Origin: Lachnospiraceae bacterium
GTDB taxonomy: Bacteria; Bacillota; Clostridia; Lachnospirales; Lachnospiraceae
Direction of reading: 5' to 3'
Assembly (NCBI GenBank): GCA_022845955.1
Contig: AP025576.1
Location: 434,001-498,000 of the forward strand
DNA length: 64,000 bases
The notes under the pieces were generated by a model that had not been told where the DNA came from, ran no database searches, and saw only the letters and a list, made by a program, of their open reading frames with translations. Below are positions 20,148 to 35,908 of this stretch, in pieces (positions within the stretch are counted from its first letter, which is position 1; each line of letters starts with the position of its first letter). The translations under genes and the position numbers were made by a program.

Positions 20148-20210
20148 ACTGTGCGAATGTAAAAAGGATTAGTGAAATAAGGTAACCGCTCAGAACGGCT
20201 GCCATTAAGA

Positions 20211-20264
20211 AAAGCCAGGTTTTGTCTCCTGCTGTTACAAGCGTTGACAAACCTGGCTTTTTAA
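20211..20264. terminator. Bidirectional terminator between GH3 and iclR-type genes
   Basis: The stem AAAGCCAGGTTTTGTC (20211-20226) pairs with GACAAACCTGGCTTT (20246-20260) with one bulged T, and T residues follow on the plus strand. The minus-strand regulator ends at its edge (20261). Confidence 0.85.
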
Positions 20265-21046: not shown

Positions 21047-21177
21047 GGAGGTACCTCAGTCCTTTTTCTTATATTTTGTATCTCAAGTTTGTATGATGTA
21101 ACTTTATCATTTTTCTCCGGTTAAAGCAAGTTATGGACGGTTGCAGCAGGACACAAAAGACTTCTGGACTGTTACCA

Positions 21178-21251
21178 TTGACAGGAGGGAGGAATTGCGG
21201 TATATATGGTATATGATTCCATATTATAAAATATAGTTCCATAATACGGAA
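21178..21251 (+). promoter_or_regulatory. Promoter and candidate IclR operator for the galactonate genes
   Basis: TTGACA (21178-21183), exactly 17 bp, then TATATA (21201-21206). Downstream, about +25, is the near-palindrome TTCCATAATACGGAA (21237-21251), and a related half-site GATTCCATATTAT starts at 21216. A repressor bound there would block transcription. The link to the adjacent IclR regulator is inference. Confidence 0.65.
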
Positions 21252-21314
21252 TTATGTTTCTGCTCCGGATATGGTAAACGGGGGTTCAGATCCTGTGAAT
21301 AAGGGGGTATTTTA

Positions 21315-21944
21315 ATGAGGGAATTATGTCTGAAAAATCCGGTTTGTGCAATTTTGAGAAACGTTTCGTTGGATATAACGGAGGATTATGCCGCAGCTGT
21401 TTTTGAAGGCGGGATTAAAATGTTTGAAGTAGCTCTTAATTCCGGGGATGCCTTCCGGCAGATTGTGCTGTTAAAAAAGTTATTCGGGCCGGAGGCTTCG
21501 GTAGGTGCAGGGACGGTTACCACGCCCGCGCGGTGCGGGATTGCCCTGGAGTCGGGAGCGGAGTTTGTACTCACTCCCTCGGTAAACAGGGAAACCATTG
21601 CATTTTGCCGGAAGAATTCCATACCGATTTTACCGGGAGTGATGACACCGACGGACGTGGATATCTGCTTATCTTATGGGATTGATACGATGAAGCTTTT
21701 TCCCGCAGGTGATTTGCCGGAAAATTATATAAAAAGCCTGAAGGGGCCGTTTGACGGAACGGAATATGTGGCTGTCGGAGGGGTGGACGCCGGAAATATC
21801 AGAACCTTTTTCGACAGAGGTTTTATCGGTGTGGGAATGGGGCAGAATCTGATCCCGAAGGAATATGTGGAAAAGAAGCGTTGGAAAGAAGCTGCGGAAT
21901 ATGTGAAAAGCCTGATGCAGGGCATAAGAAGGGAGCGCCTATGA
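21315..21944 (+). CDS. dgoA: 2-dehydro-3-deoxy-6-phosphogalactonate aldolase
   Basis: 209 residues of the KDPG/KDPGal aldolase family. The Schiff-base lysine is K127 in DTMKLFPAG. The segment FEVALNS resembles the galactonate-type enzyme (EIPLNS) more than the gluconate type (EVTLRT), and dgoD overlaps it. It would split KDPGal into pyruvate and glyceraldehyde-3-phosphate. The generic eda-type activity cannot be fully excluded. AGGGGG precedes the ATG; the stop overlaps the next start (ATGA). Confidence 0.85.
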   Translation: MRELCLKNPVCAILRNVSLDITEDYAAAVFEGGIKMFEVALNSGDAFRQIVLLKKLFGPEASVGAGTVTTPARCGIALESGAEFVLTPSVNRETIAFCRKNSIPILPGVMTPTDVDICLSYGIDTMKLFPAGDLPENYIKSLKGPFDGTEYVAVGGVDAGNIRTFFDRGFIGVGMGQNLIPKEYVEKKRWKEAAEYVKSLMQGIRRERL

Positions 21945-23089
21945 AAATAGCCGGAGTTAATGTGTATTGGGGCAGGCCCAGATGGGGTTTTGTGGAAATC
22001 ATTACGGATGATGGCCTGACCGGATGGGGCGAAGCGATTGTCGAGGGAAAAGCCAATACGGTTTTGGCGTGTGTGGAAGAGATGAAGGAATATCTGATGG
22101 GAAAGGATCCCATGCATATTGAGGATATCTGGAATACGCTTTACCGGGCCGGCTTTTACCGGGGAGGCCCCGTCCTCATGAGCGCCATTTCCGGAATTGA
22201 CCAGGCGCTTTGGGATATCAAAGGAAAGTATTATCATGCGCCGGTATATGATTTGATGGGGGGAAGCTGCAGGGATAAGGTGAAGGTTTATTCCTGGATT
22301 GGCGGGGACAGGCCGTCTGATGTGGCGAGGGATGCCCTGGAAAAAAAGGCCGCAGGTTTTACCGCTATTAAAATGAATGCCACCGAAGAGATGCAGATTG
22401 TGGATTCCTATGAAAAAATCGATCGGGTATTGGAACGGGTTGCCTCTATACGGGAAGCTGTGGGGAAATATTTCGGGATAGCCATCGATTTTCACGGCCG
22501 TGTCCATAAGCCCATGGCCAAAATACTGGCTAAAAAACTGGAAGAGTTCCAGCCCATGTTTATAGAAGAACCGGTTTTGTGCGAACATATGGAAGAATTT
22601 GCAGAAATACGGAGAGCCTGTGACATCCCGATTGCCACAGGGGAACGGCTTTTTTCCAGATATGATTTTAAACGGCTGCTTCAGACAGGAGGTGTGGACA
22701 TTATCCAGCCTGATTTGTCCCATGCCGGCGGGATTACGGAAGTGAAGAAAATTGCGGCTATGGCTGAAGCCTATGATGTGGCGTTGGCACCGCACTGTCC
22801 GTTAGGCCCTGTAGCCCTGGCCGCCTGTCTCCAGGTGGATGCGACCTGCTATAATGCATTTATTCAGGAGCAGAGCATGGGGATCCATTACAACGAACAT
22901 CATGGTGTCCTTGACTATATTATGAATAAGGAGGTTTATACATTTACAGATGGATTTGCCGAACTTCCTAAAGGTGACGGCCTTGGAATCGAGGTTAACA
23001 GGGAGTTGATCCTGGAAGAAAGCCGTACACCCCACAGATGGAAAAATCCGGTGTGGAGGCATGAGGACGGTTCCATAGCGGAATGGTAG
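21941..23089 (+). CDS. dgoD: D-galactonate dehydratase
   Basis: 382 residues, the usual length of DgoD. It is an enolase-superfamily mandelate-racemase type: WGEAIVEGKANTV near the start, FHGRVHKPMAK, the metal ligands in the barrel (IDFHG, FIEEPV, ATGERLFSRYDF), and APHCPLGPVALAAC. It dehydrates D-galactonate to 2-keto-3-deoxygalactonate. ATG 21941 overlaps the aldolase stop. No KDGal kinase (dgoK) is present in the window, so the middle step must be encoded elsewhere. Confidence 0.9.
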   Translation: MKIAGVNVYWGRPRWGFVEIITDDGLTGWGEAIVEGKANTVLACVEEMKEYLMGKDPMHIEDIWNTLYRAGFYRGGPVLMSAISGIDQALWDIKGKYYHAPVYDLMGGSCRDKVKVYSWIGGDRPSDVARDALEKKAAGFTAIKMNATEEMQIVDSYEKIDRVLERVASIREAVGKYFGIAIDFHGRVHKPMAKILAKKLEEFQPMFIEEPVLCEHMEEFAEIRRACDIPIATGERLFSRYDFKRLLQTGGVDIIQPDLSHAGGITEVKKIAAMAEAYDVALAPHCPLGPVALAACLQVDATCYNAFIQEQSMGIHYNEHHGVLDYIMNKEVYTFTDGFAELPKGDGLGIEVNRELILEESRTPHRWKNPVWRHEDGSIAEW

Positions 23090-23103
23090 GGATACAAGTT
23101 TCG

Positions 23104-23153
23104 CAGGTGGCGGCCCTCCGCCCTGCAAACAGCGGGCGGAGGGCCGCCACCTG
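23104..23153. repeat. Perfect 20-bp inverted repeat after dgoD
   Basis: 23104-23123 is perfectly complementary to 23134-23153 with a 10-nt loop. The stem is very GC-rich. There is no U-tract, so it is either a factor-dependent terminator, an mRNA 3'-end stabiliser, or a repetitive extragenic palindrome. Confidence 0.8.
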
Positions 23154-23173
23154 TTAAGTTTGAGTTACATATA

Positions 23174-23282
23174 TAAAAAAGGCGCTGTTGCGTCCTGTGT
23201 CTGGAAATCTCATAAGCTGTGCGTAAAAGGCGTAAGCTTAAGGAAATCGGGATGCAGGAATGGCAACAGCGTCTGTTTTTAT
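23174..23282. mobile_element. MITE-like element or structured bidirectional terminator
   Basis: Terminal inverted repeats of about 18 bp: the left end TAAAAAAGGCGCTGTTGC (from 23174) against the right end whose complement reads TAAAAACAGACGCTGTTGC. GGCGCTGTTGC ends resemble those of several DDE transposon families. Inside, TAAGCT and AGCTTA can pair. Runs of T follow the stem on both strands, so it also works as a terminator. No coding capacity. Confidence 0.45.
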
Positions 23283-23354
23283 GGTAGATATATCCAATAA
23301 AGGTCATTATTCTGCCGTTTAAGGCCAATTATACTTAGGAATGCATTCACGTGG

Positions 23355-23360
23355 TATAAT
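23355..23360 (+). promoter_or_regulatory. Candidate -10 box of the agr-type operon
   Basis: Consensus TATAAT at 23355-23360, 75 bp before the response-regulator gene, with no good -35 box. That is typical of promoters needing an activator. CCGTTTAAGG at about 23315 resembles a LytTR-domain binding site, so autoactivation by the adjacent regulator is possible. Confidence 0.4.
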
Positions 23361-23434
23361 TTGTTAAAAATGCGAGTATTCAACTGCAGAAAGGTTAAAC
23401 CATTATTTAATGGTAGTAATGAGAGGAGGTTTTT

Positions 23435-24139
23435 ATGTACGATATAGGGATTTGTGATGATGGTGAATTTATATGCTCCGAAATAGAAGGGATGTTGCTG
23501 CAGTTTGAAAAAAATCACAGGGTCGGGCTTGCTGTCCATATTTGGAATTCCGGGGAGCAGCTATGCCGTTACCTGAGAACATATGGAGGTTTGGATCTTC
23601 TTTTTCTGGATATAGAATTACTGGATTCAGATGGAATTATTATTGGAAAATTTATTCGTGAAGAACTGGAAAACAGGGATATACAGATTGTATATATTTC
23701 CTGTAAAGCACAATATGCACAGCAATTATTTAAAATGCAGCCTATGGATTTCCTTGTTAAACCGATTATGCAAAAACAGATAGAAGAAACAATGGAATTA
23801 GCAATTAAAATAATAGATAAAAACAGAAGATTTTTTGAATTCCAAAAGAGCGGTGAGTATTATAAGCTCCCTTATGGTGATATATTGTATTTCTACAGTA
23901 CCGGAAGAAAAATAAATATAGTGCTTAAAGATAAGGAAATCAATTTTTATAACAAAATCGATATCATCCAGAAGGATTTACCGGAAGATTTTATACTGAT
24001 ACATAAATCTTATATTATAAACGTAAACCATGTGAGAAAATATACGTATGAAACAGTAGAAATGAGCAATGACAGAATTTTAAGCATAAGTAAGCCAAAC
24101 AGAAAAGAAGTTAGAGAACATATACTTAATCAAGGGTAA
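23435..24139 (+). CDS. LytTR-family response regulator (AgrA-like)
   Basis: 234 residues. The receiver domain spans about 1-120, with acidic residues D8/D9, phospho-acceptor D59 in LLFLDIELL, and K108-type FLVKPI. The C-terminal LytTR DNA-binding domain (about 135-234) shows YYKLPYGDILYFYSTGRK and FILIHKSYIINVNHV. It would be phosphorylated by the GHKL kinase encoded 10 bp downstream. GAGAGGAGG precedes the ATG. First gene of the AT-rich island. By analogy with AgrA it should activate its own operon and possibly the downstream RiPP genes. Confidence 0.92.
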   Translation: MYDIGICDDGEFICSEIEGMLLQFEKNHRVGLAVHIWNSGEQLCRYLRTYGGLDLLFLDIELLDSDGIIIGKFIREELENRDIQIVYISCKAQYAQQLFKMQPMDFLVKPIMQKQIEETMELAIKIIDKNRRFFEFQKSGEYYKLPYGDILYFYSTGRKINIVLKDKEINFYNKIDIIQKDLPEDFILIHKSYIINVNHVRKYTYETVEMSNDRILSISKPNRKEVREHILNQG

Positions 24140-24149
24140 AGGATGGAAT

Positions 24150-25418
24150 ATGTATAATATAGTAATTTGTTGTTTGGTTAATCTTTTCAGAATGGTACTT
24201 ATACGGAGGTTTATGCAGGTTTTTTTTAGTAAAGACGTATCTGGTAAAAAGGAATTAATTGTTTATGGCCTCTTTTATGTAGTAAATACAACTTTTTACC
24301 TGGTTTTTCATTTGCCTTTACTGAACTTTTTCTGTAACCTTGCAGGTATATTTGTTATCACATTATTATATATAAATATATTTAAAATTAATATTATGGT
24401 TACTTTGCTGATTTATTTTATAAACATGGGATGTGATACATTAGCAGTTGTTATGTTTATTGATAATTATAAAGAGGGAGTGGTATTTAATCAATTATTC
24501 ACAATAATCATGGTATTATTATTTTTTATGTGTGTATTGGCAGCTGAAAAAATTGTTACTTCTAAAAAGATTACTGACGTGGTCCTTCCAGAGCATAGTT
24601 TATCATTAATGCTGGTACCGCTGATAAGTATACTTTTATTCGGGGGGTTGTTATTTGATAATAACAGTCCTGATAATATTATTTTTGAAATGGAAACATT
24701 GGGCCTTTTGCTTATTAATATGGTGGTATTCTATTTATATAATGGAATACTGAAGGCGTATATATATAAAATAGACAAACTGATATTGGAGCAAAAGCTT
24801 TCCATGTATGCCAATCAACTGGACACAATTATGAAATCTGAAAACGGAATAAGAAGTTTACAGCATGATATGAAACACCATATTATCCAGTTGGAAATTA
24901 TGGCAAAGCAAAATGGCCAGACAGATATAGCGGAATATCTTCAAAAGATGATGGATTTTATGGATGTTCAGGATGAGACGGTACATTCTGGGAATTTGGA
25001 TATAGACAGCGTTCTGAATTATATGATTCATAAAGCTAAAAAAGGTTTAAAAGAAGTAAATGTAAAGGTGAATGTCCCATCAAATATGACTTCCTGCTTT
25101 TATATAAATGTAATCATAGGTAATCTTCTTGAGAATGCCATAGAAGCAGCGGAAAATACGGAAAATAAAATATTAAATATTGATATTCATAATAAACAAG
25201 GAGTTCTTTATCTGGATATTGAGAACAGCTATTCAAATAAAGTGGATGTAAAAGAACATATATTTCTTACAAGTAAGGCCGATTCCCATAAACATGGAAT
25301 TGGATTGATGAATGTCAAGAGGATAGTAGAGGAGCACAAAGGGGTAATGAATTTTACTTATGATGAAAACTTATTTCGTGTAAAATTAATAATGTATACT
25401 GAAAAATCGGGAAAGTAA
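24150..25418 (+). CDS. GHKL sensor histidine kinase (AgrC-like)
   Basis: 422 residues. The N-terminal half (about 1-200) has six or so hydrophobic helices without a large extracellular domain, as in peptide-sensing AgrC proteins. A helical linker leads to the H-box LQHDMKHHIIQLE, then the ATPase domain with the N-box NLLENAIEAAEN and G-box HGIGLMNVKRIVEEHKG. The expected ligand is the cyclic peptide made by the AgrD/AgrB pair just downstream. AT-rich throughout. Confidence 0.9.
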   Translation: MYNIVICCLVNLFRMVLIRRFMQVFFSKDVSGKKELIVYGLFYVVNTTFYLVFHLPLLNFFCNLAGIFVITLLYINIFKINIMVTLLIYFINMGCDTLAVVMFIDNYKEGVVFNQLFTIIMVLLFFMCVLAAEKIVTSKKITDVVLPEHSLSLMLVPLISILLFGGLLFDNNSPDNIIFEMETLGLLLINMVVFYLYNGILKAYIYKIDKLILEQKLSMYANQLDTIMKSENGIRSLQHDMKHHIIQLEIMAKQNGQTDIAEYLQKMMDFMDVQDETVHSGNLDIDSVLNYMIHKAKKGLKEVNVKVNVPSNMTSCFYINVIIGNLLENAIEAAENTENKILNIDIHNKQGVLYLDIENSYSNKVDVKEHIFLTSKADSHKHGIGLMNVKRIVEEHKGVMNFTYDENLFRVKLIMYTEKSGK

Positions 25419-25552
25419 AAGTTGGGGGAAGAAAGCAAATTCTCTCAGCTTTTATATATACATCTGATTTTGACAATAATATGGTCGGTTTTTGGCATAC
25501 ATATAAAAACAGTATAAAAAGAGTATACAATATAAAACAGGAGGTATAGTAA
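25419..25552 (+). promoter_or_regulatory. Putative second promoter before the autoinducer genes
   Basis: TTGACA at 25470-25475 and TTGGCA at 25492-25497 are possible -35 boxes; TATAAA at 25513-25518 and TATACA at 25524-25529 are possible -10 boxes, none ideally spaced. AGTATA is repeated at 25511 and 25522, one helix turn apart. An internal promoter is plausible but not certain. Confidence 0.3.
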
Positions 25553-25702
25553 ATGGGAATAAAAAGAATATCGGTAAAAGTGAAAAAAACTATTGTTATC
25601 CTAACTAAAAAAATGGCCTACCTTGAAGCAAATACAGCCTGCCCATTGTGGAGTTATCAGCCCAGTATTCCAGAATGTGTGAAAAAACTGCGTAAGTTTT
25701 GA
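25553..25702 (+). CDS. agrD: AgrD-like cyclic (thio)lactone autoinducer prepeptide
   Basis: A 49-residue peptide starting MGIKRISVKVKK: a basic amphipathic leader (1-20), a middle region MAYLEANTACPLWSYQP, and an acidic-to-basic tail (PECVKKLRKF). The single Cys followed by hydrophobic and aromatic residues (C30-P-L-W-S-Y) next to a Q-P pair is the pattern of clostridial AgrD peptides, where Cys closes the macrocycle. A second Cys (C42) lies in the tail. GGAGG sits 8-9 bp before the ATG. The gene stands between the kinase and the AgrB-like protease. The exact mature ring cannot be read from sequence. Confidence 0.87.
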   Translation: MGIKRISVKVKKTIVILTKKMAYLEANTACPLWSYQPSIPECVKKLRKF

Positions 25703-25712
25703 GCGTAGAGAT

Positions 25713-26267
25713 ATGAAGCTTACAGAAAATTTTATAAGGGAAAGCATAATAAATACTGAAGAAAAAGAAATAGTAGAATTTGGGTTGGCGAGGATTAAAG
25801 ATCTAATAGCCGGTTTATCTATAACTTTCTTTATAGGGATATGCTTTGGCATACCACTGGAGAGCCTTATCTTTTGGGTTTTCAGTATGCCGCTGAGGAC
25901 AAATGCAGGAGGATATCATGCCGACAGCAGAACTGGATGCACCTTTATATCGGTTTTAACAATTATTGTATGCTTTTATTGTATCTCTAATTCTATTTGG
26001 AAAGAAGTCCCTTCCTTTATTGCCTGTTTGCTTTTTGGGGGATTGATTTTCAAAATATCCCCAGTACAAAATAAAGTAAAAGAACTGGATATTGCAGAAA
26101 AAGGGATATATAAACGCAGAAGCAGAATTATTGTAAGTGCGGAAGGGTTAATTTTAATTGCATCAATAATTTTACAGTGGAATACTCTGATAAACATTAT
26201 TTCTATGGTATTTTTATTTGTGACATTATCACTGGTTGCAGGTTCTATTAAAAATAAGAAACTATGA
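25713..26267 (+). CDS. agrB: AgrB-like membrane peptidase
   Basis: 184 residues with about five to six membrane helices. The catalytic pair is H69 and C76 in RTNAGGYHADSRTGC, with the six-residue spacing typical of AgrB (S. aureus H77/C84). It would cleave the C-terminal tail of the AgrD-like peptide and form the cyclic intermediate. It starts 10 bp after agrD. The ribosome site is weak (GTAGAGAT), suggesting coupled translation. Confidence 0.92.
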   Translation: MKLTENFIRESIINTEEKEIVEFGLARIKDLIAGLSITFFIGICFGIPLESLIFWVFSMPLRTNAGGYHADSRTGCTFISVLTIIVCFYCISNSIWKEVPSFIACLLFGGLIFKISPVQNKVKELDIAEKGIYKRRSRIIVSAEGLILIASIILQWNTLINIISMVFLFVTLSLVAGSIKNKKL

Positions 26268-26438
26268 CTTATCGTAATCCGGTTAAAGGGGAAGGGTGGG
26301 GGGCGTCATAGTTACTATTTCTATTTCTGGACGAAGTATTTCTGCAGACTGAGTTATAACCATAAAAAGGAAGAGTCTGGTCCAATGGAGATTACAGAAA
26401 AATTCTAAGGGCCTGTTTATTAGAAATGGAGGTATTAA
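26268..26438 (+). promoter_or_regulatory. Spacer between the agr module and RiPP genes
   Basis: 171 bp without a terminator hairpin that I can see. TCCGGTTAAAGG near 26280 resembles the CCGTTTAAGG site ahead of the response regulator, so a shared LytTR-type control is possible. AGAAATGGAGG is the ribosome site of the maturase. Confidence 0.3.
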
Positions 26439-28613
26439 ATGAACGGGGATATTTTATTGGGAAGTGGTCTAAGTCCATGGCAAAATGGCAGAGCCTTTTC
26501 TGTTACATTTGTTGTAACAGAAGATTGTAACTTATGCTGTAAATATTGTTATCAAGTACACAAAAATAGTAAGAGCAGAATGACGATCGAAACAGCAAAA
26601 AATGCTGTTGATTTTATATTGGAAAATCCTGATATTTTTATCGCTGAAAGTGTAATTTGGGATTTCATTGGCGGAGAACCTTTATTAGAGATTAAGTTGA
26701 TTGATGAAATTTGTGATTATATAAAATTTAAAACATTCAAATTAAAACATAAATGGAGATCAATGTACAGATTCAGTTTTAGTTCTAATGGGATTTTATA
26801 TAAACGGCCGGAAGTGAAGGAATTTATATATAAAAACAAAGAAAAATGTAGTTTCTGTATAACGATTGATGGTACAAAAGAAAAGCATGATTTACAGAGA
26901 GTATATCATGATGGGCATGGTTCATACGATGACGTGATTAAAAATATTCCAGCTTGGCTGGAAGATTTTCCTTTGGCAACGACTAAAGTGACCTTTGGTA
27001 GTGAAGATCTTCCATTATTAAAAGAGAGTATTATACACTTATGGAATCTGGGAATTAAAATGGTTCCGGCCAATGTAGTATTTGAGGATATCTGGCATGA
27101 GGGAGATGATGTTATTTTTGAAGCTCAGTTAAAAGAGTTGGCTGACTATATAATTGACAATAGAATATGGGATTATTTTGATTGCAGTTTATTTGATAAA
27201 ACTATCGGTATCCCTTTATCGGATGAACAAAAAAACAGAAATTTTTGTGGATCCGGAAAAATGATTGCTATTGATGCTGAAGGCTATATATATCCTTGTC
27301 TGAGATTTATGGACTTCTCTTTAAACAATAAAAAGCCTAAAATAATTGGTGATATCTATAACGGATTATATTTAGACAAAATCCGCCCATTTTTGGGATT
27401 GACAACTTTAACACAGAGTGATGATGAGTGTATAACATGTGATATAGCTAGCGGGTGTGCCTGGTGTCAAGGCAATAATTATGATTCTTCTGATAATAAC
27501 ACTATCTATGAAAGGGCTAAATTTGCTTGCAAAATGCATAAGGCCAGGGTACGTGCAAATAATTATTTATGGCGTAGACTTGAAACGGTAACTGATAAAA
27601 AATATAAGCCTTCCGGAAGAAAATTTTTATATTTTATATTATCAGATGATTCTATAGAGTATTGCCAATATGATAGCACAAAGAATACGGTGATGAAGGA
27701 AGTAATGAATAGCGGAATCTTGCAGGATGCAATGCAGTTTTGTGATCAATCTTTTTTTGAACCGGTTTTATTACATTCTACAAATCAAAAAAATATTGAT
27801 GATGTCGAATATGAATTATCTTTTCCTTGTCGTCAAATTTTATCAGTAAATAATCATACAAATATTAAAGGTAATGTGTACTATGTTGTTGATAAAGAAA
27901 ATTTTAATAAACTAAATCGTTGTGATATATGTATTTTAAATATAAAAAGGGATGATATCAAGAACCTTAGTATATATGTAAATAAACTGTTGGAAACATG
28001 TAAAAGAATTAATATAAATTTTCTTGATTTAAATAATTCATTTCATTTCGAAGAATATACAAAACAATTAGAAATTATTAGTAAAAATATTCTAATGTAT
28101 TATGTTAAAGGTAGGCAAGTGGAGGTTAATGTTATTTCGGATAGAATGTATTTGAACTCAATGAATAATTGTGATGCAGGAATATATAATTTTGCAGTGG
28201 CTCCTAATGGAAGAATTTATATTTGCCCAGCTTTCTATTATGACGAACCGGATAATTATGTGGGAGATATATATGCAGGGATTGATTATAATAAAGTAAA
28301 GCAATGTAAATTAGGATGTTCCCCTATATGTATGCATTGCGATTCTTATCATTGTAATAGGTGTACTTATATAAATAAAAAGTTCACAGAAGAGATAAAT
28401 ACGCCGCCAGGATTTGAATGTAGGAAAAGCCATGTTGAAAGAACTGCTTCCAAAGTGCTGGAAGCAGAACTTAAAAAAATGAATTTAATTGATGACAGGG
28501 CAGTACATATTGATAGCATAAATTATACGGATCCTATATTTAATGTAGTAAATATGTTAGGAATAAATCCATATGGAAGAATTTTTGAGGGAGAAGGATA
28601 TGAAGCAAATTAA
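26439..28613 (+). CDS. Radical SAM/SPASM peptide maturase, CXXX-repeat type, two-part
   Basis: 724 residues. The N-terminal part (about 18-270) is a radical SAM domain whose 4Fe-4S ligands are C30, C34 and C37. A first SPASM-type region (about 270-390) has FCGSGKMIAIDAEGYIYPCL and CDIASGCAWCQGN. The C-terminal part (about 395-724) lacks a radical SAM motif but ends in a second SPASM-like Cys cluster: FAVAPNGRIYICPAF, GCSPICMHCDSYHCNRC. It most resembles the maturases of CXXX-repeat peptides, apparently with the usual second maturase component fused on. Expected role: radical-based crosslinks at cysteines of the two precursors downstream. The chemistry is not known from sequence. Confidence 0.85.
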   Translation: MNGDILLGSGLSPWQNGRAFSVTFVVTEDCNLCCKYCYQVHKNSKSRMTIETAKNAVDFILENPDIFIAESVIWDFIGGEPLLEIKLIDEICDYIKFKTFKLKHKWRSMYRFSFSSNGILYKRPEVKEFIYKNKEKCSFCITIDGTKEKHDLQRVYHDGHGSYDDVIKNIPAWLEDFPLATTKVTFGSEDLPLLKESIIHLWNLGIKMVPANVVFEDIWHEGDDVIFEAQLKELADYIIDNRIWDYFDCSLFDKTIGIPLSDEQKNRNFCGSGKMIAIDAEGYIYPCLRFMDFSLNNKKPKIIGDIYNGLYLDKIRPFLGLTTLTQSDDECITCDIASGCAWCQGNNYDSSDNNTIYERAKFACKMHKARVRANNYLWRRLETVTDKKYKPSGRKFLYFILSDDSIEYCQYDSTKNTVMKEVMNSGILQDAMQFCDQSFFEPVLLHSTNQKNIDDVEYELSFPCRQILSVNNHTNIKGNVYYVVDKENFNKLNRCDICILNIKRDDIKNLSIYVNKLLETCKRININFLDLNNSFHFEEYTKQLEIISKNILMYYVKGRQVEVNVISDRMYLNSMNNCDAGIYNFAVAPNGRIYICPAFYYDEPDNYVGDIYAGIDYNKVKQCKLGCSPICMHCDSYHCNRCTYINKKFTEEINTPPGFECRKSHVERTASKVLEAELKKMNLIDDRAVHIDSINYTDPIFNVVNMLGINPYGRIFEGEGYEAN

Positions 28614-28893
28614 TTTAAAAAGTATATCAGTTGAGGAAAGCAAAGAAGTTGAGAAGATATATGAGGATTTAAATACATCGAAAGTGTTATTCAAATTATT
28701 GGCAACATCAGATAAAGAATATATTAGAAACGAATTATTATATTGTGATATAAAAAAAGATTACGAAATTGCTCAAAAGAAATATTCAAATTGGTGGAGC
28801 GATATTGTGGAACGATATGGGTTAGATAAAAGTAAACAGCAGGAATATGTTGTGGATTTTAATTCACATGTCATATTTAAATTTCAGGAATAG
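28600..28893 (+). CDS. Small CXXX-repeat peptide modification partner protein
   Basis: 97 residues, soluble, mostly helical, charged. It has no cysteine cluster (one Cys) and ends DFNSHVIFKFQE. It starts inside the last codons of the maturase gene (ATG 28600 after GGGAGAAGG), so it is translationally coupled. Position and size match the small accessory protein that accompanies CXXX-repeat maturases. A role in holding the precursor leader is plausible but inferred. The longer frame from 28573 lies within the maturase gene and is less likely. Confidence 0.65.
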   Translation: MKQINLKSISVEESKEVEKIYEDLNTSKVLFKLLATSDKEYIRNELLYCDIKKDYEIAQKKYSNWWSDIVERYGLDKSKQQEYVVDFNSHVIFKFQE

Positions 28894-29005
28894 TTTCTCG
28901 TAAGTTAATAGCTGTTATAGAGGGAGATGATGAAACTATGAAATAATTATCAAGTACTTTCCTTTTTTAATTGTATACCAGAATAATGAAAGGAGCAATA
29001 AAAGT

Positions 29006-29173
29006 ATGAAAATTGATGGTATTCAAAAAGATAGCTTATTGGTAGAACCAAGATGGTGCCCTTGTGCTGGTTCATGCGGAGGAATAACATGCGCGGGTGA
29101 ATGCATGGGTTGCCAGGGAACATGCACGACTACTTGCATAGGTACATGCAGCGGCAAGGTTATGAATTATTAA
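29006..29173 (+). CDS. CXXX-repeat RiPP precursor peptide 1
   Basis: 55 residues, preceded by AAAGGAG. The leader is MKIDGIQKDSLLVEP, then RWCPC and a Cys-rich core. Nine cysteines stand at 18, 20, 24, 29, 33, 36, 40, 44 and 48, most spaced by three residues rich in Gly and Thr. The tail is SGKVMNY. The gene is too short for ordinary callers. It shares its leader and first three Cys positions with the peptide encoded 17 bp downstream. Confidence 0.9.
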   Translation: MKIDGIQKDSLLVEPRWCPCAGSCGGITCAGECMGCQGTCTTTCIGTCSGKVMNY

Positions 29174-29189
29174 ATAAGGAGGAAAGGTC

Positions 29190-29357
29190 ATGAAAATTGA
29201 CGGGTTACCAACTAATGATTTTTCAATAGAACCAAGATGGTGTCCTTGTGTTGGGGGATGTTTTAATAGTTGTACCAATGCATGTACTGCATGTACTGGT
29301 CAGTGTACTAACTGCACAGGATGTTCTTTTAGTGCGATGACACTTCCTCCAAATTAA
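29190..29357 (+). CDS. CXXX-repeat RiPP precursor peptide 2
   Basis: 55 residues with a strong AAGGAGGAAAGG site. The leader MKIDGLPTNDFSIEP and RWCPC match precursor 1. Nine cysteines stand at 18, 20, 24, 28, 32, 35, 39, 42 and 45, with Thr-rich spacers; the tail is MTLPPN. Core residues between the cysteines differ strongly from precursor 1 while leader and Cys framework are kept, as expected for two substrates of one maturase. Confidence 0.9.
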   Translation: MKIDGLPTNDFSIEPRWCPCVGGCFNSCTNACTACTGQCTNCTGCSFSAMTLPPN

Positions 29358-29445
29358 GTCTTAAAAGGATTCCTTAATATTGTGTTATTTTGTTTTTAGC
29401 GATTGACGAATGGTAAAACAAAACATTGGTGTTAAGGAGATAATT

Positions 29446-29490
29446 CCTTCGCCGAGCTATCAATTTAACCGATGACCCGGCGAAGGGAGG
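29446..29490 (+). promoter_or_regulatory. Hairpin overlapping the ribosome site of the exporter gene
   Basis: A perfect 9-bp stem CCTTCGCCG (29446-29454) / CGGCGAAGG (29478-29486) with a 23-nt loop. The ribosome site GGGAGG (29485-29490) shares two bases with the stem; ATG is at 29498. The stem is GC-rich in an AT-rich setting. It lacks a U-tract, so it is more likely an mRNA stabiliser or translational brake than a terminator. Confidence 0.6.
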
Positions 29491-29497
29491 TAAGACT

Positions 29498-31237
29498 ATG
29501 AAGAATCTATTTAAAATATTTTCAAAAGAAGAAAAAAAGCTATTTATAAATGGGATTATTTATATCAAAGATTATAAGTGGTTTATTTTATTATATTATT
29601 TTATTTCGATTCTAAGCAGATTATCTGAATTGATTCCAGTTCTTCTAACAGGTAAGATAATAAATTATGTCGTAGAAAAAAATTTTACCCAAATATTAAT
29701 CACCATATTGTATCAATTTTTATGTTTAATTATCATGCTTATTTTAAGTTCTTTGGAAACCTATTTAAATAATTATTTGTTTAATACAATATCAAGGCAG
29801 CTAAAAGAAAAACAAATACAATATTATACAGAGTTGTCATTTAATGAATATAGATATATAGAAAAAGGATTGCTGATCAATTTATTGACAAGCGACTATG
29901 ATATAGTTTTACATTTTTATTTAGATAAATTAGTCAATTTAGTAAATTCGTTTATAACTATAATTTTTTCAATAATATGTTTGATACATTATTCCTTCCT
30001 CTTATTTATTATAGCTATTATATCATTCCCTGTCACATATATGGGTTATGTAATTAGAGGAAATAAAACTAAAAAGTATATAGAAAAATCACAATTAGTT
30101 CATGATAGTTTCTTTTCTTTTTTAAATGAAATTAGTAATTCTATTAAAGAAATCAAAATAAATGGTATTGAAAAAAGGATTGAAAATAAATCTGCTTTAT
30201 TTTTTAGTGAATTTTTTAAAATAAATATGAAAATAGCAATTATTGGACTTATTACAGGGATGTTTACACTTATCATTTCTTCGTTTTCAGAATGGCTGGT
30301 TATGGCTATTGGATGTTGGTTAATTATAAATAATAAGTTTACTATAGGCGCATATATTGCCTTTATTGGCTACCTAGGGCGTTTGTTTTCTTCACTTAAA
30401 GAAATACTGGAGGCAGCTGTGATATTTAAAACTACAAGTGCCTCATTAAAACGTATCTCTACGGTGCATCAGCTGGAAAGAGAAAATTATAATGAGGGTG
30501 AGTATATTAATATATCTGAGGGAAAAATAAATATAGATAACTTATATTTTAGTTATGAAAAAAACACAAATTATATCTTAAAGGGATTCAGTTTACAGGT
30601 AAAAGCAAATACATTAACTGTTCTTGTTGGAGAAAATGGATGTGGTAAAACGACTATTTTTAGTTTGATTGAACGTTTGTATAAAGTAGCAGAGAACAAG
30701 ATATTTATTGATAATAATGATATTAACAAAATAAGTATTAAATGTTTAAGAGAACAAATCGCTTATATCCAGCAGGACACTATTATATTTGATGATACAG
30801 TACGTAATAATATTACACTTAATATACAGACTAATGAGAGTGTTTTTGAAAAAGTATGTGAAAAAGTTAGACTTGATAAAATTGTAAACGATCTACCAAT
30901 GAAATATGATACAATGATTGATAAATTATCTTTGTCAGGGGGAGAAAAGCATAAGATAGCTATAGCTCGTGCTATTTTGAAAAACGCAAAGATTATACTT
31001 TGTGATGAGATTACCTCTGATTTAGATGGTATTGCCGAAAAAGAAATTATTAATATATTTAAAAATATATCTAATAATTGTACAGTTATATTTATTGCAC
31101 ATAGGATTACTTCTATACTTGGAATGCAAAACATTTGTATTATTAAGGATGGCAAAATAGTTGACTGTGGGAATAGTGATGATCTGTTGTTAAGAAATAA
31201 TTATTTTAGGGATTTGCTTAATATGCAACCTCAATAA
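29498..31237 (+). CDS. ABC exporter, fused membrane and ATPase domains
   Basis: 579 residues: about six transmembrane helices (20-320) and a nucleotide-binding domain (about 340-579). The latter has Walker A GENGCGKTT, signature LSGGEKHKIAIARAIL, Walker B IILCDEITSDLD and the switch His in IAHRIT. There is no N-terminal C39 peptidase, so it exports peptides without cutting a leader. It directly follows the two precursors and is the likely exporter of the modified peptides. Confidence 0.9.
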   Translation: MKNLFKIFSKEEKKLFINGIIYIKDYKWFILLYYFISILSRLSELIPVLLTGKIINYVVEKNFTQILITILYQFLCLIIMLILSSLETYLNNYLFNTISRQLKEKQIQYYTELSFNEYRYIEKGLLINLLTSDYDIVLHFYLDKLVNLVNSFITIIFSIICLIHYSFLLFIIAIISFPVTYMGYVIRGNKTKKYIEKSQLVHDSFFSFLNEISNSIKEIKINGIEKRIENKSALFFSEFFKINMKIAIIGLITGMFTLIISSFSEWLVMAIGCWLIINNKFTIGAYIAFIGYLGRLFSSLKEILEAAVIFKTTSASLKRISTVHQLERENYNEGEYINISEGKINIDNLYFSYEKNTNYILKGFSLQVKANTLTVLVGENGCGKTTIFSLIERLYKVAENKIFIDNNDINKISIKCLREQIAYIQQDTIIFDDTVRNNITLNIQTNESVFEKVCEKVRLDKIVNDLPMKYDTMIDKLSLSGGEKHKIAIARAILKNAKIILCDEITSDLDGIAEKEIINIFKNISNNCTVIFIAHRITSILGMQNICIIKDGKIVDCGNSDDLLLRNNYFRDLLNMQPQ

Positions 31238-31269
31238 TAATTGATATCGTCACTACCGAATGGAAGGAT

Positions 31270-32121
31270 ATGACAAACATGGATCTGCTAATGAAGAATA
31301 TCACATTAAACTATGGAAAAAAAGAAGTATTATCCAATATTAATATTAATTTGGGATGTGGTATATATGGCCTGTTAGGGGAAAACGGCGCGGGAAAAAC
31401 AAGCTTATTAAAATTACTTTGCGGGCTGATGAGTCCAACAGGAGGCAGTATTTTATACAATGGTTCTGAAATTGGGAAAATGGGAATTACGTATAGGGTC
31501 AATATTGGTTATCTCCCTCAGGTTACTCCATATTACCCTGATTTTTCCGTGGTGGATTATTTATTGTATTTTGCTACAATAAAAGGTATTAGTAATGGAA
31601 AAGAGCAGGTAGAACGTCTTCTTAATGAAGCCGGATTGGATAGTGTACAAAATTGTAAAATGAAAAATTTATCCGAAGGGATGAAGCGCAAAGCCGCAAT
31701 TTTGCAGAGCCTTCTTGGAGAACCTCCCATCTTAATTTTCGATGAGCCTACTGCCGGACTGGATCCAAATGAAAGAAATAAGTTTAAAAGAATGATTAAC
31801 AGATACTGTGATAATCGAATTATAATAATTTCAACACATCTGGTTTCCGATCTCGAACAATTAGCGGATCGTATTATAGTATTAAGTAAGGGACAGGTAA
31901 TTAAGCAGGGGGAAAAGACAAATTTGCTTACGGAATTATATGGGAAAGTATGGGAAAGTAAGCTGCCTATAGAAATGATTCATAAAATCAAACCGGAAGA
32001 TAAAATTATGTATAAGGATAAAGAATATTTTACTGTAAAGACGATCTTAAATGAGAAACCATATGATAATTCTGAAAAAGCAGTTCCCGATCTTGAAGAT
32101 TTGTATTCTTATTATTTTTAG
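31270..32121 (+). CDS. ABC transporter ATP-binding protein (BcrA-like)
   Basis: 283 residues with Walker A GENGAGKTS, Q-loop LPQVTP, signature LSEGMKRKAAI, Walker B ILIFDEPTAGLD and switch STHLVSD. GGAAGG lies 2 bp before the ATG at 31270, unusually close; the in-frame ATG 12 bp later (MDLLMKN) is an alternative. It pairs with the ABC-2 permease downstream. In peptide loci such pairs usually give self-protection or add export; which one applies here is not visible. Confidence 0.9.
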   Translation: MTNMDLLMKNITLNYGKKEVLSNININLGCGIYGLLGENGAGKTSLLKLLCGLMSPTGGSILYNGSEIGKMGITYRVNIGYLPQVTPYYPDFSVVDYLLYFATIKGISNGKEQVERLLNEAGLDSVQNCKMKNLSEGMKRKAAILQSLLGEPPILIFDEPTAGLDPNERNKFKRMINRYCDNRIIIISTHLVSDLEQLADRIIVLSKGQVIKQGEKTNLLTELYGKVWESKLPIEMIHKIKPEDKIMYKDKEYFTVKTILNEKPYDNSEKAVPDLEDLYSYYF

Positions 32122-32178
32122 TGGGTGGTATATAATAAGGTGTTACCCTGATCACGGATATGGGAGGATAAGAAAGAA

Positions 32179-33300
32179 ATGAAGATATTGATGTATGAGA
32201 TGAAAAAAATAGTATCGGGAAGATTCATAAAAATACTTTTGGCAGGTACATTTTTATTGATAGCATATATCAATATTTTTGGTACAAGAGGTACTGATTA
32301 TAAATATGATGAGTATACCGGAACGCTTCAGCTAATTACGGGATGGAATACAGTTAAACTTTATAAAGAAGAAACGGATAAACTGGTGGGTGTGATTTCT
32401 GAAGAGGATTTTGAAAAGTACGTAAAAGGCTACAATGCGATTCTCGATAATCCGGATAATTATAAAGGCGATATAACAGGTAATATAAATGACTTAAAAC
32501 CTGAAATCCGGTATGGTATTCTTCACAGTTATACTCCTATCCTCCCTTATATTCAAGCGGCAGCCCCTGACGGAGTAAGGATAAGGACATTAAAGGAAAT
32601 TATTCCTGATGCGGTAAACTGCGAGTTCGGGCAAACAGAAATATGGGCCGAACTATTAAAATCATTAAATGGATCCGGGGGAATTATCCTGTCGATTTTA
32701 GTGATTGCCAGTACATCAATTATTTTTGCCGGTGAAAAGGAAACAAAAACGGATCAATTAATCTACATGTCAAAAGAGAATAGTAAAGTAAATATAATAA
32801 AAACAGCGGCATCCTTTCTTTTTACTTCTATTTTATATTTGATATATCTCATCATTAACTTCGGAAGCAGAATCCTTATCTGGGGGAAAGGTGATGTAAA
32901 TATTGCTATACAAATGAACAGGTATTTTATAGATTATGAGGCATCTATTACCTTTCTGCAGATGATGGCGATGGCGATGGCGGTTTTTTGGTTGGGCCTG
33001 TTTATGCTGACCTCAATAGTACTGTTTATATCTTCGGCCTGTCCCAGTAAATATACGGCAATTATTATATCATTCATTTTAGTTGTAGTAAGTTATATAC
33101 CATCCGTACTAATGCCTCCCGGCATCATTCACTGGATGCTTTATTTACCAACAAGCCTATTAAGGCCATTAACATATTTTGTAAGTAAGGAAAGATATAC
33201 GCTGCTGTTTCCTATAGTAATCGCAGGCTGTGCGGCAACTGTTTTTATGACTCTTATTTGTATCCTGTATACAAGATTTAAAAAGTTAGGAAAAGGATAA
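32179..33300 (+). CDS. ABC-2 type permease, partner of the preceding ATPase
   Basis: 373 residues. A first membrane helix (about 15-32) is followed by a large outside domain (about 35-165), then five or so helices to the C-terminus. GGGAGG precedes the ATG. It is the last gene of the AT-rich island. The external domain could bind the mature peptide, which would fit an immunity role; this is inference. Confidence 0.8.
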   Translation: MKILMYEMKKIVSGRFIKILLAGTFLLIAYINIFGTRGTDYKYDEYTGTLQLITGWNTVKLYKEETDKLVGVISEEDFEKYVKGYNAILDNPDNYKGDITGNINDLKPEIRYGILHSYTPILPYIQAAAPDGVRIRTLKEIIPDAVNCEFGQTEIWAELLKSLNGSGGIILSILVIASTSIIFAGEKETKTDQLIYMSKENSKVNIIKTAASFLFTSILYLIYLIINFGSRILIWGKGDVNIAIQMNRYFIDYEASITFLQMMAMAMAVFWLGLFMLTSIVLFISSACPSKYTAIIISFILVVVSYIPSVLMPPGIIHWMLYLPTSLLRPLTYFVSKERYTLLFPIVIAGCAATVFMTLICILYTRFKKLGKG

Positions 33301-33400
33301 CTTTGTGGGAATGGAACCGTTTTGAAAAATGATTGATGCAATCCTGTCCCGGGTAAGTTATAATAGATCTGGGAATACTGGTGACAGGAGGATTTTGCAA

Positions 33401-34315
33401 ATGGAAACTGCCCTGGAAAAGTTCAAGGACATGGAAAAAAGCTGGAAATGGTACCAGATCAACCGATTTATCGGGGCCCTTGCCGGCGCGGTGGTGTATT
33501 CGCTGGGGATAAACCTGTTCATCGTACCGGTTGCCCTTTACAGCGGCGGTATTATGGGTTTTTCCCAAATTCTCAGGACTCTGCTCATTCAGTACCTGAA
33601 TCTGCCGCTCCAGAATTTTGATATAGCCGGTGTGATTTACTACCTGATTAACGTGCCTATATTACTGCTTTCCATGAAACGGATAGGAAGGCGGTTTTTT
33701 ATCAAAACCGTTATGTGCGTCACCACAGTGACTGTCCTTTTATCAGTGATCCCTATTCCGGTACAGCCCATATTGCCGGATGATACGCTGGCCTGCTGTG
33801 TGATCGGCGGTATTATCTGCGGTCTGGGAATGGGGCTTGCCTTAAAGAGCGGCGGTTCTCTGGGCGGCATGGATATTGTGGGGATGATGCTGATCAAATG
33901 GCGTAAGGATTTCCGTGTGGGGCGGGTGAACCTTATCACCAATATCATCCTGTATTCGGTCTGTATGTTCCTGTTTGATATTCCTACGGTAATCTATTCC
34001 CTCATCTATGCATCTTTGAGTTCTTTCGCCATCGATAAGGTACATGCCCAGACAATTAATGTGGAGGTGCGTATCATTACAAAGGCCAGGGATGAGGAGA
34101 TGGAAAAGGAAATCTTCACCGAGCTGGAGCGGGGGATCACGAAATGGGAAGCTATCGGGGCTTATACGGATGAATCCGTACACATCTTATTTGTCCTGAT
34201 TTCCAAGTATGAACTGAGCCAGCTGAAAAATATTGTGCACAAATACGATCCCCATGCCTTTATCGTGGTAAACGAAGGGGTAAATGTGGTTGGTAACTAT
34301 AAAACCCGTCTGTAG
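33401..34315 (+). CDS. YitT family membrane protein (DUF161/DUF2179)
   Basis: About 305 residues from ATG 33401, which follows AGGAGG; the longer frame from 33329 runs through the promoter region. Five hydrophobic helices (GLALKSGGSLGGMDIVGMML is typical) are followed by a C-terminal DUF2179 domain (NVEVRIITKARDEEMEKEI). The function is unknown. GC-balanced again, marking the right edge of the island. Confidence 0.9.
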   Translation: METALEKFKDMEKSWKWYQINRFIGALAGAVVYSLGINLFIVPVALYSGGIMGFSQILRTLLIQYLNLPLQNFDIAGVIYYLINVPILLLSMKRIGRRFFIKTVMCVTTVTVLLSVIPIPVQPILPDDTLACCVIGGIICGLGMGLALKSGGSLGGMDIVGMMLIKWRKDFRVGRVNLITNIILYSVCMFLFDIPTVIYSLIYASLSSFAIDKVHAQTINVEVRIITKARDEEMEKEIFTELERGITKWEAIGAYTDESVHILFVLISKYELSQLKNIVHKYDPHAFIVVNEGVNVVGNYKTRL

Positions 34316-34335
34316 GGTGGATACCTGGTTTCAGG

Positions 34336-34397
34336 AAAACCCCTCCGGAGGATACGCTGTCTGCCAGGCAGGGCGCTTATCCTCCGGAGGGGTTTTT
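34336..34397. terminator. Bidirectional terminator between yitT-like and DUF1846 genes
   Basis: AAAACCCCTCCGGAGGATA (from 34336) pairs with TATCCTCCGGAGGGGTTTTT (ending 34397), an 18-bp near-perfect stem around a small inner hairpin. U-tracts occur on both strands. Confidence 0.92.
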
Positions 34398-34410
34398 ATA
34401 TGGTTTTATG

Positions 34411-35886
34411 CTATTGCTGATTGTCCGATTCCGTTTTCGGTTCGCAGGTCAGATGCATTCCCAGCTTCTTGAAAACCGCTTCATCCACGGAGGAGAGCAT
34501 GACGGAAGAATGAACCTCGCAGCCCTTCAGCTGGCGCAGGGCACTTAAGGCAAGTGCAGCCCGCTTGTCCGTGGCGGCGCTGATGGAGAGGGCGATAAGG
34601 ATTTCATCCGTATGGAGCCTTGGGTTAATGCTCCCCAGATAAGAGGTTTTCAGTGTCTGGATAGGCTCGATGGCCTGGGGGGATACTAAGTGTACCTCGT
34701 GGTCAATGCCTTCCACAACCTTCAGAGAATTCAGGAGGCAGGCGGAGGCGGCGCCCAGGAGGTCAGTGGTCTTGCCGGTCACCAGCGTGCCGTCGGAAAG
34801 CTCGATAGCCACGGCGGGATGTCCGGTTTCCTGTTCCCGCTGCATGGCGGCGTTTACCACGGGACGGTCATTGATGGTGAGTCCGGCCTGCTTCATGAGC
34901 AGCTGAAGCTTATAGAGGATATCCTTGGAGCTGTTTCCGCGCTTCAGTTCGCACAGGCAGTGGTAATAGCGGCGGATGATTTCCTGGTTGGCGGCTTCCC
35001 GGCAGCTGGCATCATCAATGATGCAGTTTCCCGCCATATTCACTCCCATATCCGTGGGGGATTTATAAGGGCTTTCGCCCAGAATCTGTTCGAAAATGGC
35101 GTTCAGGACCGGGAAAATCTCCACATCCCGGTTATAGTTCACCGTAGTTTTCCCGTAAGCCTCCAGATGGAAGGGGTCGATCATGTTTACGTCATTCAGG
35201 TCTGCCGTTGCCGCTTCGTAGGCCATGTTGACAGGATGCTTCAACGGAAGGTTCCAGATAGGGAAGGTCTCGAATTTGGCATATCCGGCCTGGATGCCCC
35301 TCTGGTGCTCATGGTAGAGCTGGGAAAGGCAGGTGGCCATTTTTCCGCTGCCGGGACCGGGAGCGGTGATGACCACAAGGGGCCTTGTGGTTTCCACGTA
35401 TTCATTCCTGCCATAGCCTTCGTCACTGACAATTAAGTCAATGTTATCGGGATAGCCTTCAATCACATAATGAAGATAGGAGCGGATTCCCAGATTGTTC
35501 AGCCGGACGCGGTACTGATCGGCAGAGGGCTGGCCGGAATACTGGGTGATAACAACGGAACTGGCGAGGAACCCCATTTTGCGGAAAGTTTCGATGAGAC
35601 GGAGGACCTCGGCATCATAGGTAAGCCCGGAATCCATGCGGATTTTATTCCTTTCGATGGAAGGGGCGCTGATGACAAGCACAATTTCCGCCTGATCCTT
35701 CAGCTGGCGGAGCATTTTAAATTTACTGTCCGGTTCAAAACCGGGAAGGACACGGGAGGCGTGATAATCGTCAAAAAGCTTACCTCCGAACTCCAGGTAC
35801 AGCTTGTCGCCGAACATGGCAATACGCTCCCTGATATGCTCTGACTGCATTTTTAAATATTTGTTGTTATCAAATCCGTACTTCAT
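34411..35886 (-). CDS. DUF1846 domain-containing protein
   Basis: 491 residues, full family length. Recognisable segments: MKYGFDNNKYLKMQSEHIRE, the VVITAPGPGSGKMATCLSQLYHE P-loop-like stretch, and the NMAYEAATADLND region. The biochemical role is not established. It lies 22 bp after pyrG on the same strand, so the two are probably co-transcribed. Confidence 0.92.
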   Translation of the reverse strand: MKYGFDNNKYLKMQSEHIRERIAMFGDKLYLEFGGKLFDDYHASRVLPGFEPDSKFKMLRQLKDQAEIVLVISAPSIERNKIRMDSGLTYDAEVLRLIETFRKMGFLASSVVITQYSGQPSADQYRVRLNNLGIRSYLHYVIEGYPDNIDLIVSDEGYGRNEYVETTRPLVVITAPGPGSGKMATCLSQLYHEHQRGIQAGYAKFETFPIWNLPLKHPVNMAYEAATADLNDVNMIDPFHLEAYGKTTVNYNRDVEIFPVLNAIFEQILGESPYKSPTDMGVNMAGNCIIDDASCREAANQEIIRRYYHCLCELKRGNSSKDILYKLQLLMKQAGLTINDRPVVNAAMQREQETGHPAVAIELSDGTLVTGKTTDLLGAASACLLNSLKVVEGIDHEVHLVSPQAIEPIQTLKTSYLGSINPRLHTDEILIALSISAATDKRAALALSALRQLKGCEVHSSVMLSSVDEAVFKKLGMHLTCEPKTESDNQQ

Positions 35887-35908
35887 AGCTTCCTCTTCAT
35901 CATTTCAT

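Follow-up and report, generated by a model that had tools for sequence, protein, structure and literature searches.

The window examined here is a 64,000-nt stretch of the genome of a Lachnospiraceae bacterium (assembly GCA_022845955.1, contig AP025576.1, positions 434,001 to 498,000), and the island of interest, at window positions 23435-33300, joins a quorum-sensing module of the agr type to genes for a ribosomally synthesized and post-translationally modified peptide (RiPP) built around a radical S-adenosylmethionine (SAM) maturase. All genes lie on the plus strand, in the order agrA-agrC-agrD-agrB, maturase, partner, two Cys-rich precursors, peptidase-less exporter and an ABC ATPase/permease pair:

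23435..24139, +, agrA-like response regulator with receiver and LytTR domains (PF04397 58.8 bits, PF00072 38.6 bits)
24150..25418, +, agrC-like sensor histidine kinase of the GHKL type (PF14501 74.6 bits)
25416..25454, +, terminator-like hairpin after agrC (15-pair stem, z -5.7)
25473..25498, +, conserved 26-bp block ACAATAATATGGTCNNTTTTTGGCAT upstream of agrD (conserved with the congener G397)
25553..25702, +, agrD, autoinducing peptide precursor (TIGR04223 37.3 bits, cut-off 19)
25713..26267, +, agrB, AgrD-processing membrane peptidase (PF04647 106.5 bits, cut-off 23)
26297..33323, +, putatively exchangeable cassette between agr and yitT, with no DNA alignment to congener G397 (the blastn alignment breaks off at 26296 and is picked up again at 33324)
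26439..28613, +, CXXX-repeat radical SAM/SPASM maturase, 724 aa (TIGR04115 542.9 bits, cut-off 350; TIGR04119 255.3 bits, cut-off 150)
28600..28893, +, small partner protein (TIGR04116 57.9 bits, cut-off 50)
29006..29173, +, Cys-rich precursor 1, 55 aa, 9 Cys (TIGR04114 18.4 bits, below the cut-off of 20)
29190..29357, +, Cys-rich precursor 2, 55 aa, 9 Cys (start shared with precursor 1; no family match)
29358..29496, +, predicted structured RNA between precursors and exporter (-45.7 kcal/mol, z -5.2)
29498..31237, +, ABC exporter, membrane and ATPase domains, no C39 peptidase (PF00664 75.9 bits, PF00005 102.9 bits)
31270..32121, +, ABC ATPase (TIGR03740, the lantibiotic-protection ATPase model, 143 bits, below the cut-off of 309.75)
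32179..33300, +, ABC permease, partner of the ATPase (PF12679 26.1 bits, just below the cut-off of 27.2; no NCBIfam match)

An earlier note on this DNA, made from the letters alone, had laid out the genes in this order, on this strand and at these coordinates, and the open reading frames (ORFs) agree with it. It had also called the agr module complete, which is borne out by matches to PF04397, PF14501, TIGR04223 and PF04647 in four consecutive genes, encoding AgrA (LytTR), AgrC (GHKL), AgrD and AgrB; the complete CXXX-type RiPP cassette that it placed on the agr strand passes the cut-offs of TIGR04115, TIGR04119 and TIGR04116. The exporter, described there as peptidase-less, has ABC membrane and ATPase domains and no C39 peptidase was found in it, and the island is AT-rich as claimed, with a GC content of 0.27-0.34 in nine kilobases (24-33 kb) versus 0.42-0.57 in 52 of the 55 other kilobases of the window. 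No Rfam family was found at gathering thresholds in window positions 20000-37000. The host genome is one 7.29-Mb contig with a single TIGR04119 match and two AgrB genes; at the second agrB module (G000:C1:6681392-6681886, L180), no nearby radical SAM gene was detected.

Three congeners differ in what they carry at this site: agr with the CXXX cassette (window), an orthologous agr with another radical SAM cassette (genome G397) and an empty site (G399). In G397, yitT (95%) and the dehydratase gene (91%) lie on one contig with AgrB between them, and blastn aligns window positions 23305-26296, the whole agr module, at 80.7%. The alignment stops 29 bp past the agrB stop codon and resumes at 33324 on the yitT side, at 84.8%; the G397 insert of 6.03 kb shows no alignment to the 7.03 kb that occupy this interval in the window. 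Its cargo comprises a PqqD-family protein (38.8 bits to PF05402, above the cut-off of 23.4) and a radical SAM/SPASM protein of 353 aa (82.5 and 40.6 bits), for which the sactipeptide maturase StsB is the closest NCBIfam model (101 bits, with the cut-off at 625). It also includes three small ORFs with Cys (40, 39 and 63 aa), two ABC exporters and a signal-peptidase-like protein (37.7 bits, below cut-off). The window and G397 stretches each lie inside one long contig. In G399, homology breaks off where the beta-glucosidase gene ends (20137) and returns at 33325, the two ends lying ~600 bp apart, and the IclR-type, aldolase and dehydratase genes left of agr are absent as well. A search for the G397 maturase in 329 Lachnospiraceae genomes (E ≤ 1e-45) returned nothing, which shows little because G397, which would match itself, was not among the genomes drawn.

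The agr modules of the window and G397 look orthologous. Protein identities are 83.8% for agrA, 80.4% for agrC, 67.3% for agrD and 73.4% for agrB, and 94.0%, 94.5% and 78.9% for the flanking dehydratase, yitT and KDPG aldolase genes. Synonymous divergence (dS) amounts to 0.73 (agrA), 0.76 (agrC), 0.29 (agrD) and 0.68 (agrB) within the module and to 1.51 (KDPG aldolase), 1.12 (dehydratase), 0.98 (yitT) and 0.94 (DUF1846) in the four flanking genes measured. An import of agr more diverged than its flanks was rejected because agr dS is not higher than flank dS. The tree of AgrC pairs the window with G397. The ratio of nonsynonymous to synonymous divergence (dN/dS) is 0.11, 0.15 and 0.23 for agrA, agrC and agrB, 0.77 for agrD, a rough value because this gene has only 49 codons, and 0.08, 0.04, 0.03 and 0.02 for KDPG aldolase, dehydratase, yitT and DUF1846. 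The AgrD core reads ANTA-CPLWSY-Q in the window and ANTA-CSFWYY-Q in G397, with the core Cys conserved, and the ring of the predicted cyclic peptide would span Cys30-Tyr35 (CPLWSY). This pattern of divergence fits a module that has stayed at its site while its signal drifted.

A hairpin after agrC is predicted in all three agr-RiPP loci, namely the window (z -5.7), G397 (z -2.4), where it carries a run of T, and L039 (z -3.3), a second agr-CXXX locus described below, in which a consensus terminator scan of the stretch lists the agrC hairpin as the sole terminator-like site. By the same scan, there is no terminator-like site between agrB and the cargo in the window, G397 or L039, where the two are separated by 171, 35 and 44 bp, respectively, and the agrB-maturase gap of the window folds no better than shuffles (z 0.85). 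Because a hairpin is predicted after agrC and no terminator was found between agrB and the RiPP genes, we infer read-through from the agrD promoter, with two putative transcription units, agrA-agrC and agrD-agrB-cargo, the second presumably under AgrA. The block ACAATAATATGGTCNNTTTTTGGCAT is a candidate AgrA site; it occurs once in the whole genome at ≤3 mismatches, and neither the window nor the genome contains a second copy before the precursors or the maturase at that threshold. With no such copy at the RiPP genes, any agr control of them would therefore go via read-through.

To place the island among related loci, TIGR04119 was found above cut-off in 4 of 397 family, 3 of 392 order and 6 of 391 class genomes (overlapping draws, each including the window's genome), and TIGR04115 in 2 of 13 genus genomes: that of the window and G407, where no AgrB was detected next to the locus (L095). 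In this locus, from Candidatus Eisenbergiella merdavium, the CXXX genes (2081-9090) come after genes that look conjugation-like by eye. The best 80 of 175 relatives given by a collection scan were taken as loci, and an AgrB profile, built from 15 of the 30 fetched AgrB loci plus the window (plus-strand ORFs only), was run over 92 maturase loci: the window, the 80 named loci, 7 viral ones and 4 others, three of these duplicating named loci. It matched at the window and L039 only; no AgrB was detected adjoining the 7 relatives on viral contigs. Eight further maturase regions, several of them duplicates of named loci and one only 4 kb long, yielded no AgrB or AgrC match. The search for the same agr-maturase neighbourhood that the earlier note had proposed thus succeeded once, in a Lachnospiraceae metagenome-assembled genome (MAG) from water deer (L039), which has the order agrA, agrC, a 50-aa AgrD-like ORF (no NCBIfam match at E ≤ 0.01), agrB, maturase, TIGR04116 partner (73 bits), four Cys-rich ORFs and ABC genes. 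Given the 32 AgrB hits found in 127.8 Mb from 41 relatives, chance alone would place ~0.003 AgrB genes no more than 300 bp upstream, and on the same strand, across the 72 other maturase loci whose upstream sequence spans at least 1 kb; this value would drop further because many of the 72 loci are Bacteroidota, which the estimate ignores.

The maturase tree (28 of 83 rows, hand-picked after a larger tree had been seen) rejects a clade of the window and L039 (approximately unbiased (AU) test, p 0.0166), and the AgrC tree (46 rows) rejects a clade of the window, G397 and L039 (AU p 0.0019). These rejections are consistent with repeated assembly of agr-RiPP loci. Another radical SAM RiPP cassette behind an orthologous agr at the same site in a congener, together with this non-sister agr-CXXX locus, supports the view that the pairing of agr with RiPP genes is not accidental, and the link appears better supported than the earlier note could know because cassettes are exchanged at one site.

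Seen from the agr side, radical SAM cargo is a recurring minority habit and not the rule. An AgrC search hit 100 of the 397 family genomes, and 40 agr loci were fetched, mostly from the top of the list with a few passed over; AgrB was detected in 22 of them. In none of these 22 was a radical SAM gene detected in the 3 kb downstream; this counts detected genes, since a distant AgrB or a radical SAM protein of another subfamily could have escaped the profiles. One locus (L252) has a SCIFF-type radical SAM gene 3.3 kb downstream; the SCIFF profile was built from 5 of 10 loci (plus-strand ORFs only). A radical SAM gene lies within 0.8 kb of agrC, with agrB not detected, in 3 of the 40 loci (L259, L266 and, as a fragment, L238), a proportion biased upward because L266 was chosen for its nearby maturase-like match. 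In L266 (6087-11070) and L259 (7925-11703), AgrC/AgrA-like pairs adjoin PapB-like radical SAM maturases; the L266 maturase has two radical SAM stretches. In L238 (9261-11001), a shortened agrC is followed directly by the radical SAM fragment, which could represent a decayed agr-radical SAM locus or a misassembly. No radical SAM gene was detected in the three nearest agr relatives outside the genus. In L229 (10068-11946), among the nearest agr relatives, a gene of the choloylglycine (bile salt) hydrolase family stands behind agrB (PF02275 351 bits).

Taken together, these observations make it reasonably probable, in our judgement, that the island is an agr-controlled RiPP locus, with agr as the fixed controller and the radical SAM RiPP genes as exchangeable cargo. 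Under this scheme, agrA-agrC would form one transcription unit ending at the hairpin, and AgrB would convert AgrD into a cyclic peptide. In dense populations, AgrC-AgrA would activate the promoter before agrD, and transcription would continue through agrD-agrB into the cassette. The maturase would then introduce cross-links, most likely thioether bonds, into the Cys-rich precursors; the exporter would secrete the peptides, which may have an antimicrobial role, and the ABC pair would protect the producer. What the sequences show directly are the genes, their spacing, the orthologous agr, the difference in cargo and the empty site. More tentatively, and with less than even confidence, we suggest that some Lachnospiraceae agr modules serve as docking points: the module would stay while its specificity drifts, radical SAM cassettes would be swapped behind agrB, and signal and product would change together between sister species.

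Several findings weigh against agr control of exchangeable cargo. The exchange is seen in one genome pair, with contamination estimates of 9.5 and 13%, and agr dS is somewhat below flank dS, leaving room for recombination within agr. The G397 hairpin is weak, with 7 of 200 shuffles folding equally well, and the consensus scan lists nothing after agrC in the window or G397, their hairpins being absent from its list because the loops are longer than it allows. A search with a LytTR half-site consensus covered 16 regions from the three loci, among them the agrD promoters, and found no pair in any of them; the block before agrD does not fit this consensus. Sigma-70-like sites are no commoner in the region than chance predicts (54 vs 60.1). 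A CXXX cassette can also exist without agr, since no AgrB was detected at the cassette of Clostridium gasigenes (L035), which has the same order (maturase 48%, partner 32%, Cys-rich ORFs, exporter 29%, ATPase 39%); there, a 386-aa ORF after the ATPase has no BLAST match to the window permease, and the cassette adjoins ORFs that look transposase-like by eye. Finally, L039 (1-6890) and the window both lie within ~10 kb of pyrG, DUF1846, ftsH and uvrC, with different insertion points, a quartet that was found at >250 bits in 0 of the other 40 agr loci fetched. The trees had at first favoured an entirely independent origin for L039, a view that is weakened because the two loci have this neighbourhood in common, which could possibly be a hot spot or mark an old locus with replaced parts.

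These points bear most directly on the possibility that the two systems are neighbours only, with agr controlling other genes and a mobile RiPP cassette behind agrB driven by a density-independent promoter of its own, for which the 171-bp gap of the window would leave space. The earlier note had named agr and RiPP genes lying apart in relatives, with no common binding site, as an observation that would speak against the link, and we found half of this: of the 72 other maturase loci having 1 kb or more of upstream sequence, 71 gave no detected agrB, L039 being the exception (counts of detected genes, as a distant AgrB could be missed), and no further copy of the candidate AgrA block precedes the RiPP genes. 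Most fetched agr loci, too, carry other cargo. Mere adjacency would nevertheless have to account for the same agrB preceding one radical SAM cassette in one congener and a different one in another, for gaps of just 35 bp in G397 and 44 bp in L039, and for the lack of any listed terminator-like site 3' of agrB in the three loci; we consider it unlikely, though it retains some weight. Alternatively, the whole island, agr included, could be one recently acquired mobile element, as its AT-richness relative to the flanks and its absence from G399, together with three more genes to the left, might suggest; but agr and both flanks are collinear with G397, dS of agrA, agrC and agrB is 0.68-0.76, and the family-model scan matched no integrase or transposase family in the 11 island genes (smaller ORFs were not scanned), making a recent arrival very improbable. 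The least probable proposal is that the cassette serves the signal, either with the maturase or exporter acting on AgrD or with the Cys-rich peptides as second pheromones read by AgrC: the AgrD core does differ along with the cargo between the congeners (CPLWSY, CSFWYY), but the cassette has dedicated precursors, C. gasigenes has a cassette with no agr detected, and the agr-linked LanM-like protein of C. acetobutylicum is reported, in the available text, to be dispensable for synthesis of the autoinducing peptide (PMC10301443).

If agr does control exchangeable RiPP cargo, the cyclic AgrD peptide could be a switch for waking silent radical SAM clusters of gut Clostridia, and a chemical arsenal could be renewed by cassette swap while the controller is kept. 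The CXXX-repeat family would also become testable, with its maturase seen as two radical SAM halves in tandem, the first motif-intact and the second degenerate.

In Rgg/SHP systems, the controller is a cytosolic Rgg protein with a short hydrophobic peptide (SHP), whereas the island has a membrane AgrC-AgrA pair with AgrD and AgrB. No Rgg regulator was found in the 11 scanned island genes, whose regulators are LytTR and GHKL proteins; genes outside and very short SHP-type ORFs were not searched. The streptococcal Rgg/SHP radical SAM RiPP clusters resemble the island in that peptide quorum sensing stands beside a radical SAM RiPP cluster and several products go with one kind of controller, and such control is well known, for example for tryglysin, as far as the available texts go (PMC8092268, PMC13361665); the word 'agr' does not occur in the main text of the latter review. 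The nearest precedent found for agr adjoining RiPP-type enzymes comes from clostridia, where, in the sections of the paper available, agr adjoins genes for LanM-like proteins, some of these loci belonging to lanthipeptide clusters (C. hungatei), and where CA_C0082, a RiPP-synthetase-like gene immediately downstream of agr, is under Agr control (PMC10301443). CA_C0082 lacks catalytic residues and follows agrCA (PMC10301443, same sections), whereas a motif-intact maturase and precursors follow agrDB here and the cargo differs between congeners; no LanM-like protein is encoded 3' of agrB, the proteins there matching radical SAM, TIGR04116 or ABC families, or nothing. The earlier note's view of the agr link as new was therefore too broad, agr beside lanthipeptide-synthetase genes and Rgg/SHP-controlled radical SAM RiPPs being already published, and it stands for the radical SAM combination to the extent that no agr-radical SAM cluster is reported among the literature matches listed, judged by titles and the starts of abstracts. 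What would be new here is an agr module that stays in place as controller while the radical SAM RiPP cargo behind it is exchanged, in the graded sense given above. The CXXX-repeat system (TIGR04114/04115/04116/04119) is matched by the window maturase and partner above curated cut-offs and differs in that, among the examined loci besides the window, agrB was detected at L039 only; a literature search found no paper naming the CXXX-repeat system with radical SAM, or TIGR04119. Enterocin O16 of Enterococcus faecalis is not known to be a radical SAM product or to be encoded in the fsr operon. Its control by Fsr is similar in that agr-type quorum sensing governs a secreted antimicrobial peptide (PMC5454873, available text).

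The two halves of the maturase align with each other by profile comparison (hhalign; probability 97.5, E 5e-12), compared with a probability of ≤0.4% for five column-shuffled control profiles. The first half has an intact radical SAM motif; residues 385-724 form a degenerate radical SAM/SPASM copy that has lost the SAM-cluster motif yet keeps cluster cysteines, and in Bacteroidota loci the two halves are separate ORFs. In an alignment of 37 fused maturases (the window and 36 of 38 named sequences; L092 and L093 were left out), the CX3CX2C cysteines of the first half are kept in all 37, as are two SPASM-type cysteine sets, though one of these is only nearly invariant. The AlphaFold2 (AF2) model of the maturase (predicted local distance difference test score, pLDDT, 88.2) has as its best solved folds CteB, 5WHY (E 1.3e-20) and 5WGG (E 1.4e-20), followed by ChlB and anSMEcpe, and the sequence profile also puts 5WGG first (E 9.6e-45). 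The PapB-family model NF047865 gives 197.1 bits, below its cut-off of 340. The enzyme thus resembles the SCIFF/ranthipeptide maturases CteB and PapB, from which it differs by the added degenerate half and by the lack of an N-terminal leader-binding domain, for which there is no space, the radical SAM domain beginning near residue 20. CteB being a thioether enzyme, this fold favours thioether cross-links of the precursors.

Both precursors start with MKIDG, have EPRWCPC in common and carry a Cys every 2-5 residues, mostly 3-4 (spacings 2,4,5,4,3,4,4,4 in precursor 1 and 2,4,4,4,3,4,3,3 in precursor 2); the product is probably a Cys-rich, cross-linked peptide. The start of the TIGR04116 partner was picked by its ribosome binding site and overlaps the maturase end, the longest ORF beginning at 28573. 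Its AF2 model (pLDDT 92.2) is a helical hairpin plus three strands, with no match in the PDB at E ≤ 0.001. A self-protection role of the ABC ATPase is possible, and a similar ATPase stands behind the C. gasigenes cassette. The predicted pairing of the structured RNA at 29358-29496, which has no second copy in the genome and no Rfam family, covers part of the exporter's ribosome binding site.

Other CXXX loci offer a few minor observations. In a Lachnoclostridium MAG (L096, 10001-12130), split CXXX genes fall among Bacteroidota rows in the tree, which would imply transfer or a mis-binned contig. In Anaerococcus and Peptoniphilus (L056, L060, L061, L068, L085), a 515-aa ORF (517 aa in L061) and a 201-aa response regulator lie directly 5' of the CXXX maturase; in L060 the regulator is of the LuxR type and the large ORF has no Pfam match. 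In a Blautia MAG (L071, 5447-9395), where agrB was not detected, an AgrC-like kinase, an exporter and a LytTR regulator lie upstream of the CXXX maturase.

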